Shown here: in pieces, positions 309-25,327 of the stretch
Layout: each line of letters starts with the position of its first letter
Position numbering within the stretch: position 1 is the first letter of the stretch
Source: Parabacteroides faecis
GTDB lineage: Bacteria > Bacteroidota > Bacteroidia > Bacteroidales > Tannerellaceae
Assembly (NCBI RefSeq): GCF_014647375.1
Contig: NZ_BMPB01000016.1
Span: 162,504-226,503 of the forward strand
Reading direction: 5' to 3'
DNA: 64,000 bases
The notes under the pieces: generated by a model
Told to the model about the DNA's origin: nothing
The model's input: the letters and a program-made list of their open reading frames with translations, nothing else
Databases searched by the model: none
Position numbers and translations under genes: made by a program

Positions 309-1595
309 ATGTATATGCTGAAAAAAATGATTGAAAAATGGTATCGTCTGTTCATTGGACGGATGCTTGCCGGGAAAAATGATGTGGCGGAAACTGTGTC
401 GGAGAAAATATCTTCAAAGCAGCTTACTACACCCCTTAAGAAAGACGGTTCTATGCAAAAAGGGACCGGCATGATGGTCTGTATGGAGCAGTTTTTGGAA
501 GAACAGTATGATTTTCGTTTCAACATGCTGACGGAAGAGACGGAATACAGGAAGCGGAACGTTCCTTCGGTTGGTTTCCACCCTGTTGGACAGCGCGAAT
601 TAAACAGTTTCTGTATCGAAGCGCGAAAAAACGGAATCGATTGCTGGGACAGGGATGTGTCGCGCTATGTGTTATCGGATAGTATTTCTGAATATCATCC
701 GTTCCGTTTGTTTATGGAAGAATTGCCGGAATGGGACGGGACAGACCGGGTCATACCTTTGGCACGCCGGGTCTCATCGGACGGGTTGTGGGTGAGAGGG
801 TTTCGCCGTTGGTTGCTGGGGATAGCGGCACAATGGCTGGGAACAGACCGCTTGCATTCGAACAGCGTTTCGCCGGTGTTGGTCAGCCGCGTGCAAGGTC
901 GGCAAAAGTCTACTTTTTGTAAATTATTATTGCCCGGTGAGTTGAAACGATATTATACGGATTGTTTCGATTTGACGGCTCAATCTGCAGCCGAACGTAA
1001 ACTGACTGAGTTCGGTTTGATCAATATGGATGAGTTCGATAAATTCACTTCCCGTAAGATGGCTTTGTTGAAGAATCTGATGCAGGTGGTCGATCCGTGT
1101 ATTCGTAAGGCACATCAGAAAAGTTACCGTTCCTTGCCTCGCGTCGCTTCTTTTATTGCTACATCCAACCAGAAAGAGCTACTGACCGACCCAACCGGTA
1201 GCCGGCGTTTCCTTTGTGTGGAGATAGAACATAAAATTGATTGTTCTGCCATTGATTATCGCCAACTTTATGCGCAACTGAAAGCAGAGTTGGCAGCAGG
1301 TGAACGCTATTGGTTCACTTCCGAAGAGGAGGCGGAGATCATGACGGCCAATGAGGCGTTTTATAAGCATCCGGTGGAAGAGGAGGTGTTCAAATCTTGT
1401 TTCCGTCCTGCCGGATATGGCGAGAAGGCGTTGATGTTATCTGCCGCGGAGATTTTCCTGCGATTGAAAAAGCACAATCCGGCAGCGATGCGTTCAGTAT
1501 CGGCAGGTAATTTCGGAAAGCTTCTTTCTTCCCTGGGAATTGAACGGAAACATACTGAAAACGGTAATTTGTATCTGGTGGTAGCACAGGGGTAA
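309..1595 (+). CDS. VapE-like P-loop ATPase (virulence-associated E / DUF3874 type)
   Basis: The protein has 428 residues. The central part matches VapE proteins of phages, satellites and Bacteroides mobile islands. A P-loop-like QGRQKST lies near residues 195-202 and a Walker B-like NMDEFDKF near 238-245. These are followed by ATSNQKE and the family signature TGSRRFLCVEIE. VapE relatives are superfamily 3 helicase-like ATPases, often fused to or next to a primase. Here there is no primase half, and the usual glycine before the P-loop lysine is a glutamine, so the catalytic state is uncertain. No integrase, HU or amidase partner is in view. The start at 309 is the first ATG; 315 is equally possible. 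The gene is probably a resident relic or domesticated part of an island. Family assignment is fairly sure; function is not. Confidence 0.7.
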   Translation: MYMLKKMIEKWYRLFIGRMLAGKNDVAETVSEKISSKQLTTPLKKDGSMQKGTGMMVCMEQFLEEQYDFRFNMLTEETEYRKRNVPSVGFHPVGQRELNSFCIEARKNGIDCWDRDVSRYVLSDSISEYHPFRLFMEELPEWDGTDRVIPLARRVSSDGLWVRGFRRWLLGIAAQWLGTDRLHSNSVSPVLVSRVQGRQKSTFCKLLLPGELKRYYTDCFDLTAQSAAERKLTEFGLINMDEFDKFTSRKMALLKNLMQVVDPCIRKAHQKSYRSLPRVASFIATSNQKELLTDPTGSRRFLCVEIEHKIDCSAIDYRQLYAQLKAELAAGERYWFTSEEEAEIMTANEAFYKHPVEEEVFKSCFRPAGYGEKALMLSAAEIFLRLKKHNPAAMRSVSAGNFGKLLSSLGIERKHTENGNLYLVVAQG

Positions 1596-1882: not shown

Positions 1883-1915
1883 ATGACTGAATTAAACGTC
1901 CCTTTTTTCTCGTCA
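1883..1915 (+). repeat. Left arm of the inverted repeat flanking a putative invertible promoter
   Basis: Positions 1891-1915 (beginning ATTAAACGTCCC, ending TCTCGTCA) are the exact reverse complement of 2057-2081, 25 of 25 bases. Similarity continues outward over AGTCAT with a few mismatches, giving arms of about 33 bp. The arm contains AAACGT, which resembles the core I recall for B. fragilis Mpi invertase sites (ARACGTWCGT), but the rest of that motif does not match. Confidence 0.85.
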
Positions 1916-2056
1916 ACAAAAGTAATCATTCCTTTCAAATCTACAATCCTTTTTGAGTAAAAATTATCTTTCCTATATTCTTTCTTATCAGTTAGATAAC
2001 AATCCTAGTACAAAAAAGCGGTTTTTTATTACGAAGTCAAAATGGACTCTAAAAAA
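1916..2056. promoter_or_regulatory. Putative invertible promoter segment (drawn in OFF orientation)
   Basis: This AT-rich 141-bp spacer lies between perfect inverted repeats and directly upstream of an S-layer-like gene. The only full TAnnTTTG match is TACTTTTG on the minus strand (complement of 1917-1924). It has an ATTG 19 bp upstream (complement of 1944-1947), so it points left, away from the gene. If the segment flipped, the same boxes would lie at about 2025-2028 and 2048-2055 pointing right, giving a leader of roughly 95 nt to the start at 2157. On the plus strand only a weaker TATCTTTC is seen. Phase-variable S-layer glycoproteins driven by invertible promoters are known in Parabacteroides distasonis; applying that here is inference. 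No invertase gene is in the window. Confidence 0.7.
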
Positions 2057-2089
2057 TGACGAGAAAAAAGGGACGTTTAATCTAGTCAT
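2057..2089 (-). repeat. Right arm of the inverted repeat flanking a putative invertible promoter
   Basis: This is the exact reverse complement of 1891-1915 over 2057-2081, with outer similarity to 2089. It ends 67 bp before the start codon of the S-layer-like gene, so a promoter flipped towards it would initiate inside or just past this arm. Confidence 0.85.
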
Positions 2090-2156: not shown

Positions 2157-5100
2157 ATGAACAAAAAGTTTTCTACGCTTGTAGGATGTCTTTTGCTGGG
2201 AACTGCGTTCTCGGTAAATGCACAAGATCTTCCTAAATGGTATGATAAGACTCAGGCTGATTTTGCATGGCCTAAAGAGGCTGATTTTGCCGTTAAGGGA
2301 AAAGTTCCAGGTTTTATTTTGAATAAGGATAACGTTAAAACCGCTGGAGATGCGCGTTATCAATTTAGCAATACTTTGAACAGTCTTGTTCCTGGTATTT
2401 CTGTCGCTTTTGATACGGATAGTAAGAATGGTGTTGCAGAAGCGAATGTTGTTGCAGGTACGAAATTGGAAGAAGGAGCAGCAGGATGGGAAAAAATCAC
2501 ACCTGTTTACGGTTCTTTTGACGGAGGTTTGGGTATTATCCCGGGTATGCAGAATAATGGTGAAGTATTTCTGACTCTTAACACACAAGGATTATCTAAC
2601 CCGACAAGCATTGAATTTGATATTTATGCTGCTAAAGTTAAAGAAGGTAAGACTCCCAACCGTAATATTAAATGGAAAATTACGGCAAAGTCTTATGCTT
2701 TGAATGGGGCAGGTGATGCTGCAGATCTGAATATTGCGGCTGTAACAGCATCTGGACAGCAGCTTGATGCAACATCTTCTATAGAATATACTGCAAACAA
2801 TGCTGGTATTTTGGCCGGATCTAAATATACCATCCGTTTGAATGAAAATGCAAATGGTGGTAAAAACAGTTTGGCTAATAAAGTGATCGTATTCCAAATT
2901 ACTAATGAAAAAGCATCGGAAGCTGATAATAATGAAGCACAGGATAAAAATGAACCTGTAACAGTTGTTAAAGGTTTGAATTTTACTTATCAGCGTCCTG
3001 AAGTATTGTTCTCTACAACAGGTAAAATTGAAGAGTATGTGACTCCGGCTGTTTTTGCAGAAGAACTTAATGCCGGTGCCGGTTATGAAGTTTCTGATAA
3101 ATTGTATACTCGTATTGAGTATTTTAACCCAGCTGAAAATATAGACCTTACTACTGATAACTTAGAATTGGATTTATTATCTGTTTATAAGTTGTCGATA
3201 GCTTATCCGTTTACCTTGGATGAAACTAAGTTGCCTGCAGGGCATCTTTTAACTTCTGAAACAAAAGATGGCGTAACTACTTACTGGATTAAAATAGACA
3301 ATAGTAAGCTGACTGCTGGTGGTAAATCTGACGGTTTGTTCACACTGGATAAAACGTATGACGGAAAGGATGGTAATAAGAAGTATATCACAGCTGCATT
3401 CGATATCAAATTTGCTCCGAAGCAAGTGAAAGATTTTGATGCTTCTAAATATATCAATGCTGAAATTGTGGCTCGTGATGCATCTTTAGCTGAAGCTCAG
3501 TTGGATGGTACATCTGTTCCTTCGTTTATCATCAAGCCTTCGACAATGGCATTTGATGAATATGATCAGACAAAAGAAGCAGGTTTGGAAGTGAAGAACT
3601 TACCTAAATTTACTAATGATGTAGATTGGATCGCTAATCTGACAAATAACAGCGGAAAACCGTTACAGCCAAAATGTGAAGCTGTTGGCTTTTATGCTTA
3701 TGATAAGGATGGTAAATTGATCGATATAAATAAGGATGGAAAGTCTGACGCAAATGATTTTGTAAAAAATGACCAGTTTGACGAAACATTCTTGACTAAT
3801 TCCGGAAATTTGAATACTGAAAAGTATAAGACAATTACGCTTGCTGTTAAATACGAAAGAGGAAACGTCTCAACAGACTTGGAACAATCCATTGATTTCC
3901 AGGAAGTGTTTGGCTTGAATAGAGCGTTGAAATTCGAAGGCAACATTGATGCAAACGATTACACCGGTAAAGATTTGGTTGATAAGGATGTTAAAAAGAA
4001 TTTGGGTGCTATCTATCCGAATGATCTGAATGTGACAGGCAACAACCAATATGTATGGTTTACTTACGGATCTAACGGTTCGGTTGCTGAAGCTATGCAG
4101 TTACCTGATGGTAAAGTATTGAATGAAGGTGATTTAAAGGGTCATTACGAACGTTATTTCTATGCACCGTTTGAAGCGAATGCTCCGGAAAGTGCACGTA
4201 CTTCTCGTGTAGATACTATTTTCATTCATGCTAGTGAACTGATTCCGACAGTTGATAATAAAGCAATCGTGAAGTTTGCTATCGATCAGGAAGACAATGC
4301 AGCCTCTAATGATTTCCGTTATAAGGCTTCCGATTCTTATGGTATTGATGTCGCTTACTTTAAGAACCCTGTTACCGGTGCCAAGATTGCAGCCAATGAA
4401 AACTTCCGTGGCGGTGCTTATACCGATACTTTATATTTTGAAATTGACCTGAACAATGTGGCTATGGTTAAAGCTGTTAAAGAAAAAGGTCTCGAAATCA
4501 ATATGAAGTATGTTGCTGATACAGAAGAATGGGCAGGTGCTGACTATAATGGTGGCGAAACTCAAATCTTTAAAGTGATAACAGCTGACGCAAAAGGTCA
4601 TAATGTTTTGCCGGTAAAAGGTCTGACCGATCGTGGCGTTGTTACGAATATTTATGCTCAGAACTATAAGGATTGGTATAAATTCCAGAAATGGGAAGAT
4701 GGACCGGGTAGTGATGAGGTTTATGGCGAACAGTTCCCGAACGATTTCGGTACTTCTTATATCAATACTTGCATCAGCGGTGATAGCGCATCATTTGTGA
4801 TCGCTGGTATTAACGTGATCGATACAGTAAAGGTTTCTACATTATCTAATCAGAATACCTCATTTGTTTATACACAGGATGAAGCTTCTGAAGCTTATGG
4901 TACTTTCAGTGTAGATAAAAAGAATCATCTGATGACGATCGTTCCTAACGAATATGGTGAAATTTATGCTAAAATCAATGTTAAGTTTGCTCCGTCAGCC
5001 AATGATAAAGCCCTCGATACGTTGATTTACGAACCCAGACACAAAGCTAATGTGCTGAGAAAGTTCATTTACGAAGATCTGAAATTCGGTATTGGAAAAC

Positions 5101-6839
5101 GTAGTGCTCATAAGGATACTAAATTCTATGGTATGGGCGATTTGATTTACCTTGTTAAGGATACGTTGTTCAATACACGTGATGTAATGGGTAAAAATAT
5201 TAAAGTTAGTGAAAACTATACTGGAAATTTAGGTGATGACGTAGAAAAAGTCAAAAAATTCGAATCTGGTTTGTTCTACGATGCAGGCTATACTTATCAG
5301 GCAGATTCTTTGTTCTCTGTTATCCATGGTGATGCTAAGAAGCCGGTTCTGTTCTTTACGGATGAGAATGGTGCAGTTATCAATACAGCTAAAAAACCAA
5401 TGCAAATGGGTGAGATTGTTTTTGGTACAACTGCAGAAAAAACAATTAATATTGTAGGTCGTGAACTTCCGTTTGAAGATCTTGTTTGGCCGGTAGATGA
5501 AACAAATAGTTCGACTATCTTCTTCACAAATAGTAATCAGGATATTTATCCTGTAAAAGATGCTAAATATCGTATCAAAGATTTGATGACAGTTCTTGGT
5601 GGTGATGTAACTATTCCTGTTACGATCAAGGCTAAACCGTCCGCTACCGCTCCTTGTGATACATTGACATCGCTGACTGTAAACGTTCCGGTACTTTGCT
5701 CTGTAGACAGTACAATCAATGTTTCATTCAAAACCGTGTTGGTTGGTCCGGAATTGAACGCATTCAAGCCAGGTGATATTCAGGGTGATCGTGCTAATCT
5801 GACATGGAAGCCCGGATTTAAACAAGGTGAGGTTGAACATGAAGTTGTAGTGGGACTTGTTAAATATAATAAGAAGTCTTCTTCTATTTTTATTTCAGAA
5901 GTGTATGCTCATAATGGAACGTTGGCTGTTGAATTGTTCAATGGTACGGCTAGTAAATTGAATAAAGATATATTCGATATCTCTTCTCCTAACTATTATT
6001 TGGTTTTGGAAGAATCTGGTAAAGTGATTGAAACCAGACCAATTGTTTCACAATATGATATAGTTGAACCTTATGGAGCAATTGCAGAATGGTTTAATTA
6101 TGACTTTAAGTCTAATACATTGTATACTGTTACTTTGAAACAAGGTAATATCACAATGGATGTATTCCAGTTCTCTACTCCGTCCACTCATATGGGTAGA
6201 CGTGATGATCTGATTGCTGCTGGTCAGGAAGTGACAGAAAAGACAGATCCTTACAGAGCAGAAAAATATGATCAGGCACAGTGGACTAACGTTAATATCT
6301 GGAATATGGGACTTGAATCAGGACAGATCGGATTTGCTGAAACTGTAGCTTATAATGAAACATCTAAACATGCAACAGCATTTGTTGCTTCATGGGACGT
6401 TGCTAAATCAAGTATGTCTGGTCTTTATGATGGTACCTTGATTAAAGGACTTCATAATAATATCACTTATGATGTTTGGGTAATTCCGGCATTGACAACA
6501 GGTATGGATTGTGTAAGTCGTGTAATTCCGACGAAAGGTGTTATTGCTACCAGCGATTCTAAACTGAATGGCGGTAATGTTATTGCAGATATTACATTTG
6601 ATATTCCGACTGCAAACGAAGATATCAATTCCAGTGTAACTGCTATATCTGTAGTTGGTGATAACGGAAAGGTTATTGTCCGTAATGCAGCAGGTAAGTC
6701 TGTCTCAGTTTATGATGTATTAGGAAAATCAGTTGTTAAAACAGTTATTTCTTCTAACGAAGTTGAATTTAATGCTCCGAAGGGTGTTGTAGTTGTAGCT
6801 GTTGAAGGTGAACCAGCTGTTAAAGCAATTGTAAAATAA
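2157..6839 (+). CDS. S-layer-like exported glycoprotein with DUF6383-type C-terminal domain
   Basis: The protein has 1560 residues. An N-terminal signal peptide (MNKKFSTLVGCLLLGTAFSVNAQ) has no lipobox, so the product is exported. The body is beta-rich, acidic and low in cysteine. At least nine D-S/T-hydrophobic sites (for example DTI, DTL, DSA, DTV, DSL, DST) match the Bacteroidales O-glycosylation motif D-(S/T)-(A/I/L/V/M/T). The last 75 residues, with GKVIVRNAAGKSVSVYDVLG and APKGVVVVAVEGEPAVKAIVK near the end, match the DUF6383 tail that I associate with Parabacteroides surface proteins. That tail resembles but is not the classic T9SS type A tail. Upstream sits a putative invertible promoter and downstream a strong terminator, so the gene is monocistronic and probably phase-variable. 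Codon use is AT-rich but like that of highly expressed neighbours. An S-layer role is inferred from size, export, glycosylation sites and promoter layout. Confidence 0.75.
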   Translation: MNKKFSTLVGCLLLGTAFSVNAQDLPKWYDKTQADFAWPKEADFAVKGKVPGFILNKDNVKTAGDARYQFSNTLNSLVPGISVAFDTDSKNGVAEANVVAGTKLEEGAAGWEKITPVYGSFDGGLGIIPGMQNNGEVFLTLNTQGLSNPTSIEFDIYAAKVKEGKTPNRNIKWKITAKSYALNGAGDAADLNIAAVTASGQQLDATSSIEYTANNAGILAGSKYTIRLNENANGGKNSLANKVIVFQITNEKASEADNNEAQDKNEPVTVVKGLNFTYQRPEVLFSTTGKIEEYVTPAVFAEELNAGAGYEVSDKLYTRIEYFNPAENIDLTTDNLELDLLSVYKLSIAYPFTLDETKLPAGHLLTSETKDGVTTYWIKIDNSKLTAGGKSDGLFTLDKTYDGKDGNKKYITAAFDIKFAPKQVKDFDASKYINAEIVARDASLAEAQLDGTSVPSFIIKPSTMAFDEYDQTKEAGLEVKNLPKFTNDVDWIANLTNNSGKPLQPKCEAVGFYAYDKDGKLIDINKDGKSDANDFVKNDQFDETFLTNSGNLNTEKYKTITLAVKYERGNVSTDLEQSIDFQEVFGLNRALKFEGNIDANDYTGKDLVDKDVKKNLGAIYPNDLNVTGNNQYVWFTYGSNGSVAEAMQLPDGKVLNEGDLKGHYERYFYAPFEANAPESARTSRVDTIFIHASELIPTVDNKAIVKFAIDQEDNAASNDFRYKASDSYGIDVAYFKNPVTGAKIAANENFRGGAYTDTLYFEIDLNNVAMVKAVKEKGLEINMKYVADTEEWAGADYNGGETQIFKVITADAKGHNVLPVKGLTDRGVVTNIYAQNYKDWYKFQKWEDGPGSDEVYGEQFPNDFGTSYINTCISGDSASFVIAGINVIDTVKVSTLSNQNTSFVYTQDEASEAYGTFSVDKKNHLMTIVPNEYGEIYAKINVKFAPSANDKALDTLIYEPRHKANVLRKFIYEDLKFGIGKRSAHKDTKFYGMGDLIYLVKDTLFNTRDVMGKNIKVSENYTGNLGDDVEKVKKFESGLFYDAGYTYQADSLFSVIHGDAKKPVLFFTDENGAVINTAKKPMQMGEIVFGTTAEKTINIVGRELPFEDLVWPVDETNSSTIFFTNSNQDIYPVKDAKYRIKDLMTVLGGDVTIPVTIKAKPSATAPCDTLTSLTVNVPVLCSVDSTINVSFKTVLVGPELNAFKPGDIQGDRANLTWKPGFKQGEVEHEVVVGLVKYNKKSSSIFISEVYAHNGTLAVELFNGTASKLNKDIFDISSPNYYLVLEESGKVIETRPIVSQYDIVEPYGAIAEWFNYDFKSNTLYTVTLKQGNITMDVFQFSTPSTHMGRRDDLIAAGQEVTEKTDPYRAEKYDQAQWTNVNIWNMGLESGQIGFAETVAYNETSKHATAFVASWDVAKSSMSGLYDGTLIKGLHNNITYDVWVIPALTTGMDCVSRVIPTKGVIATSDSKLNGGNVIADITFDIPTANEDINSSVTAISVVGDNGKVIVRNAAGKSVSVYDVLGKSVVKTVISSNEVEFNAPKGVVVVAVEGEPAVKAIVK

Positions 6840-25275: not shown

Positions 25276-25327
25276 ATATAAAACAAAGACAGCCGTCATT
25301 TTTATGACGGCTGTCTTTGTTTTATAT
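25276..25327. terminator. Bidirectional terminator with a perfect 24-bp stem
   Basis: Positions 25276-25299 are the exact reverse complement of 25304-25327 with a TTTT loop. The stem contains AAAGACAGCCGTCAT and is flanked by A-rich and T-rich bases. It separates the converging rplQ and TPR genes and would end transcription from both sides. Confidence 0.92.

Follow-up and report, generated by a model that had tools for sequence, protein, structure and literature searches.

The window examined here is a 64-kb stretch of DNA (positions 162504–226503 of contig C16) in the 6.66-Mb, 33-contig genome of Parabacteroides faecis. Close to its left end it carries a 207-bp element, located between a gene for a VapE-like/DUF3874 protein and a long gene, an intact frame of 1560 codons, whose product ends in a DUF6383 domain (Table 1). 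The product of this target gene matches PF19910 with 81.8 bits over residues 1484–1559, and DUF6383 was the sole clear family in a Pfam scan of ten domains; the signal peptide was called by eye. An NCBIfam search with the protein gave no match, nor did a PDB sequence search with its whole length (up to E 0.1), and none was found at E ≤ 1e-60 in 38 other genomes of the genus, for each of which the best candidates (14 at most) were scored. The product is putatively an S-layer glycoprotein, a designation drawn from its DUF6383 C-terminus and from the accessible part of the P. distasonis literature, and the literature also makes it plausible that DUF6383 acts as a type IX C-terminal signal. The genome also encodes SprA_N, a component of type IX secretion, a finding that is at most consistent with the S-layer reading.

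Table 1. Features of the locus, in coordinates of the window.
Feature	Position	Strand	Remarks
Upstream neighbour, VapE-like/DUF3874 protein	309..1595	+	one relative has it next to a switch at the corresponding chromosomal site
Left arm	1883..1915	+	holds the predicted 32-bp invertase site TGACTGAATTAAACG-TC-CCTTTTTTCTCGTCA at 1884-1915
Inner segment, predicted to be invertible	1916..2056		141 bp
-7 box TACTTTTG	1917..1924	-	directed away from the DUF6383 gene (OFF)
Second TAnnTTTG match TAGATTTG	1936..1943	-	outside the conserved box spacing
-33 region ATTG (CAAT on the plus strand)	1944..1947	-	19 bp between TTG and the TA of the -7 box
Conserved upstream box TGATAAGAAAG	1980..1990	-	putative activator site, 55 bp upstream of the -7 box
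Right arm	2057..2089	-	inverted copy of the left arm, 31/33
Target gene, 1560-aa protein	2157..6839	+	N-terminus MNKKFSTLVGCLLLGTAFSVNAQ resembles a signal peptide by eye; DUF6383 (PF19910) at the C-terminus

Architecture of the Element

The two arms are 33 nt each, complementary at 31/33 positions and separated by 141 nt, and they include an exact 25/25 core (1891–1915 / 2057–2081) with the same central dinucleotide, TC, in both. No other exact inverted repeat of the window at spacings up to 300 is as long as this core; in 40 first-order Markov shuffles of the window, the longest inverted repeat averaged 11.9 and reached 14 at most. Within the window itself, the runners-up at these spacings were a repeat of 24 bp with a 4-nt loop and then one of 12 bp. 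The 24-bp exact hairpin lies at 25276–25327 and is probably a terminator.

The initial annotation, made from this DNA alone, had described a 25-of-25 inverted repeat around 141 bp, which was borne out and can be extended to 31/33. It had also described a single exact TAnnTTTG box inside the repeat, and this needs to be corrected, as there are two, TACTTTTG and TAGATTTG, both on the minus strand. The remaining points of that description hold: an ATTG precedes the first box by 19 bp, the promoter is directed away from the downstream gene in this assembly, and the leader after a flip would be about 95 nt, given that an in silico flip moves the -7 box to 2048–2055 on the plus strand, with 101 nt from the end of the box to the ATG (2157). 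Only TACTTTTG stands at the spacing (55 or 56) from the conserved upstream box that is common to the genome's 12 DUF6383-type elements, and TAGATTTG is probably not the promoter.

Related Elements in the Genome

A BLAST search with the window element found 11 other places in the genome at 69–75% identity, giving 12 DUF6383-type elements, while a search with the arm pattern at up to three mismatches gave 60 places, versus five for the reversed control. Eleven of the 12 elements precede genes with a DUF6383 C-terminus, and of the 16 DUF6383 genes of the genome that pass the Pfam cut-off, 14 match strongly. The inner segment is 141 bp long in 10 of the 11 scored arm pairs of this type and 132 bp in the other; in the twelfth element, C4c, the left arm is degenerate, and the arm-pair scoring did not include it. 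The initial annotation had proposed to look in related genomes for the same arms next to other DUF6383 genes; the same arms and promoter do precede other such genes, both in this genome and in records of Parabacteroides/Tannerellaceae.

Two of these elements stand apart. The orphan switch C5c (L016:2016-2222) is complete, and behind it there is only a 59-aa frame and no DUF6383 gene. C4c (L017, C4:97200-104500; element near 2062-2268) precedes a MRKS-type surface gene, and its arm is degenerate in P. gordonii likewise. Switches of the C4c type are OFF in all four records (L017, L102, L109 and L101), the counterparts being from P. gordonii and P. goldsteinii, and are possibly locked in that state; the C4c promoter faces a thymidylate-synthase-like gene, as judged by eye.

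A further 12 arm pairs with the same core, here called other-type elements, were found at other loci. Eight proteins encoded next to them were scanned, of which four are polysaccharide-type enzymes; a TonB-dependent-receptor-like protein, a sigma-70-type factor, a DUF3575 protein and an NHL-repeat protein make up the rest. One such switch (L056:4955-5135) lies between two divergent polysaccharide-type gene sets, and its flipping might swap one set for the other. On contig C12, a lone palindromic invertase-like site (L055:2687-2718) had no partner in the 8 kb taken.

Three DUF6383-type switches (L009, L010 and L012) have inner segments that are 95–98% identical. The inner segment of C1a (L009) is 95–97% identical to those of C5a and C1b, whereas the flanks are without likeness and similarity ends with the arms on either side. 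This suggests movement of promoter cassettes from one locus to another, or their exchange. A simple site-specific exchange of cassettes by the invertase is argued against for four of 14 near-identical pairs, in which the dinucleotides at the centre of the arm sites differ between the two elements.

Arm Sites and the Putative Invertase

In each arm, two half-sites and the dinucleotide between them form a 32-bp site. Serine recombinases whose overlap is 2 bp need matching central dinucleotides in their two sites, so that equal dinucleotides in the two arms would be expected if such an enzyme acted upon them. Of 85 elements entered in this comparison, two were skipped for lack of a core and 83 were scored (23 from this genome and 60 from relatives among the matches listed). 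The dinucleotide was the same in both arms in all 83, a figure to be read with the facts that the elements had been found by repeat or consensus similarity and that related copies are non-independent, both of which favour agreement. One element (L180) agreed in the wrong register and was dropped, leaving 82/82 that were properly placed. When the arm partners of all 83 were shuffled, a mean of 23.1 agreed, with a maximum of 37; under an alternative placement of the arms, with the left one chosen for its likeness to the right, the dinucleotides agreed in 60/60 elements of an overlapping set. Seven dinucleotides occur over the 82 elements (AT 31, TT 29, TA 7, AA 6, GT 5, AC 3, TC 1), and TC was found in the window element alone. 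Outer half-site positions agree far less between arms (0.45–0.55 at three positions). The inner half-sites (positions 2–14 versus −12 to 1) also agree well, and more often than the outer ones, which might reflect cassette exchange or conversion.

Four serine recombinases are encoded in the genome. One of them, a 200-aa protein on contig C13, matches the Mpi-family invertase model NF009949 with 323 bits (cut-off 272), so that the search for an invertase, another check put forward at the outset, had a positive result; within the window, the first 10.5 kb showed no invertase gene. Mpi-family invertases score over the cut-off in 32 of 39 genomes of the genus. An enzyme other than this main Mpi protein, either a weaker Mpi-like serine enzyme or a tyrosine invertase, is an unlikely agent of inversion. 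Two further serine recombinases of the genome do score with the Mpi model, below the cut-off (188 and 184 bits), and tyrosine invertases reportedly switch some Bacteroides surface genes (a reference cited in PMC12632263), but the dinucleotide rule agrees with a serine enzyme of 2-bp overlap, and the arms of DUF6383-type and other-type elements are near-identical in the core, as for one global enzyme. We infer that the Mpi-family enzyme acts on the window element.

Autoregulation of mpi was considered and dropped. The candidate site in this genome, ahead of the mpi gene (L057:4874-4905), consists of half-sites on both strands, each at three mismatches. Of 20 loci of relatives that were scanned, the start of the gene was located in 10, and none of these had an mpi upstream palindrome over the threshold, which was applied to the relatives.

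A Conserved Box Upstream of the Promoter

Alignment of the 12 elements revealed an invariant 11-mer, CTTTCTTATCA, which reads TGATAAGAAAG in the promoter direction. It lies 55 or 56 bp from TAnnTTTG in all 12 and also in two promoters that lack arms. A longer form of the box, at no more than one mismatch, occurs at 13 places in the genome, the 12 elements and C4:142554, which is a DUF6383 gene without arms and with its promoter facing it; allowing two mismatches adds 12 more places, about the level of the reversed control (13 in all). The second armless DUF6383 gene (L042) has GGATAAGAAAG, with one change, at the same 55 bp, and its promoter also faces the gene. The geometry at C4:142554 recurs in two relatives (L231 and L232), before proteins that are 85% and 40% identical. 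The exact box is absent from the locus taken around a third strong armless DUF6383 gene (L043), and from the loci of the 12 other-type elements.

Across the genus, the box-plus-promoter pattern was found in 27 of 39 genomes, at 189 places in sum, and the reversed pattern at none. DUF6383 genes occur in all 27 of these genomes, yet also in nine of the 12 without the pattern. Outside the genus, a slightly shorter form of the box is found in six of 85 genomes of the family.

These data point to TGATAAGAAAG as a candidate activator site, about 70 bp before the start, that would be common to invertible and armless DUF6383 promoters. A role as a recombination enhancer is disfavoured, because the box is present at armless promoters and missing, in its exact form, from the other-type loci. 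A text search of the literature for TGATAAGAAAG, the scope of which did not extend to Fletcher et al. 2007, found no mention of it, and papers containing the 11-mer or its complement, among the matches listed, looked unrelated by title.

Orientation in Relatives

A scan of genome contigs for the box plus the -7 box yielded at least 110 stretches with at least 112 promoter matches. Among the matches listed, 85 are from Parabacteroides or other Tannerellaceae and 27 from elsewhere, as split by eye on names. Flanking inverted repeats accompany 62 of these 85, versus 0 of the 27, and 78 of the 85 promoters have a gene of S-layer type (recognised by the DUF6383 profile or an N-terminal motif) next to them, versus 0 of the 27, again among the matches listed. 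The 62 repeat-flanked promoters comprise 48 OFF, 8 ON and 6 without a recognised gene. Promoters without detected repeats, among the same matches, comprise 13 OFF, 7 ON, 2 with genes on both sides and 28 with none.

Inversion can be seen at sister loci. In one MAG, two loci (L133 and L177) are colinear in both flanks, at 72.8% over 746 bp on one side and 73.5% over 732 bp on the other, and the element enclosed by the flanks aligns in reverse (94.8% over 213 bp). A reading of these two as orthologues was rejected, since both come from one MAG and are paralogous loci; the evidence for inversion is unaffected. Between two species, the element of L157 (OFF) is reversed relative to that of L141 (ON), with 76% over 214 bp; the gene-side flanks are colinear (70% over 738 bp), and on the other side there are short matches only. 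Fourteen pairs of elements are at least 88% alike in the inner segment, and in all five ON–OFF pairs among them crossed flanks are more alike than same-side flanks; single flank values are weak here, given that just 100 bp of flank was compared and that random values (mean 0.57) reach 0.87. Both orientations relative to the flanks thus occur within the element family in relatives, and the proposal of a phase switch made in the initial annotation is well supported by them, with at least 48 OFF and at least 8 ON copies and a segment inverted between colinear flanks.

In the P. faecis assembly, all 11 elements that precede DUF6383 genes are OFF, so that the assembly alone would fit locked switches as well. 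The window element could, on such grounds, be a relic, once invertible and now fixed in the OFF state before a silent gene, and the degenerate left arm of the sister C4c and the OFF counterparts of the latter in P. gordonii and P. goldsteinii would agree with this. The idea is nonetheless decidedly improbable for the window copy: its arm core is intact at 25/25, its dinucleotide, unique among the scored elements, is still the same in both arms, its gene is an intact frame of 1560 codons, and OFF predominates also in relatives that have ON copies (48 versus 8 among the matches listed). The window copy, represented by one assembly, presumably still flips. That the promoter instead serves the upstream VapE-like region as an antisense promoter, with the inverted repeat being a terminator or the end of a mobile element, can scarcely be credited, for although in the assembly it is directed at the 3' end of the VapE-like gene, the arms are 141 bp apart, unlike a hairpin, two armless promoters point straight at DUF6383 genes, and the flipped form faces the gene in relatives.

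The chromosomal site was also compared. fusA was located in 11 relatives, and the region upstream of it was taken in nine of these. In one of the nine, a VapE-like gene (68% identical), an OFF switch and a DUF6383 gene are arranged as in the window, and that DUF6383 gene resembles the window gene in the last 77 residues only; in the other eight, no box was found in the 12 kb taken upstream of fusA. At this site ahead of fusA, the VapE-like/DUF3874 gene of two relatives (L222 and L229) has a HU-HIG-type DNA-binding gene nearby. The VapE-like gene and the switch may be part of one inserted module.

Discussion

The 207-bp element at 1883–2089 is very probably an invertible promoter that is flipped by a serine invertase, most likely of the Mpi family, and that switches a DUF6383 surface-protein gene ON and OFF. 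In the proposed mechanism, each arm would serve as the binding and crossover site of the invertase, which is most likely the Mpi-family protein of contig C13. The 141-bp segment would be inverted when the arms recombine at their central dinucleotides, and inversion would place the downstream DUF6383 gene either in the ON state, with its leader of about 95 nt, or in the OFF state, as in this assembly.

Phase-variable glycoproteins (DgpA, DgpC and others), presumably of the surface layer, have reportedly been described in Parabacteroides distasonis by Fletcher et al. 2007 (PNAS). As far as the accessible texts go, these resemble the present system in genus, in being surface proteins with a characteristic C-terminus and in phase-variable expression; DgpA/DgpC are given as a table row in PMC2943079, and the part of PMC4030854 available notes a C-terminal likeness to Tannerella S-layer proteins. 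The arrangement also recalls the Mpi regulon of Bacteroides fragilis, where a single Mpi enzyme flips many promoters (PMC5903667 and PMC12632263, in the excerpts available) and inverts at least thirteen regions (PMC5903667, likewise in excerpt). In both cases there is one Mpi-family enzyme and many scattered invertible promoters, here 12 DUF6383-type and 12 other-type elements with a common core, the arms being 32-bp sites like TGACTAGAAAAAACG-NN-CGTTTTTTCTAGTCA. Unlike the capsule promoters of B. fragilis, half of the elements here precede DUF6383 genes or resemble those that do.

Two further systems appear to differ in their repeats, judging from the accessible portion of PMC12118408. The capsule promoters of P. 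distasonis have the inverted-repeat consensus GCTACTYRGNRAGTAGC, which differs from the window arms. Bacteroides thetaiotaomicron has phase-variable S-layers with invertible promoters before the S-layer genes, linked to phage resistance, but their repeats (consensus CCGTTACCTABVRAGTAAC) lie beside site-specific integrase genes and look unrelated to the arms of the window. The window element joins phase-variable S-layer switches that are already known, and the new point, within the literature searched, is the TGATAAGAAAG box.

It could be speculated that the surface-layer switches of Parabacteroides work as a two-key lock, in which a promoter flipped by Mpi is combined with a TGATAAGAAAG site 55–56 bp upstream for a candidate dedicated activator, which would also drive the armless DUF6383 gene that is always faced by its promoter. 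Flipping would then determine which of the coat genes are armed and the activator would set the amount of coat, with cassettes maybe being traded between loci at the invertase sites. This model is put forward tentatively, and we would rate its chances at slightly below even.

The phase-variable surface coat of gut Parabacteroides would be extended by these findings to a genome in which as many as 11 DUF6383 genes may be switchable. The arms, the dinucleotide rule and the upstream box together provide an exact signature by which such switches may be found in genomes or metagenomes, and from the box one would expect much of the coat family to answer to a single regulator. Phase-variable S-layers in related gut Bacteroides bear on phage resistance, according to the accessible part of PMC12118408.
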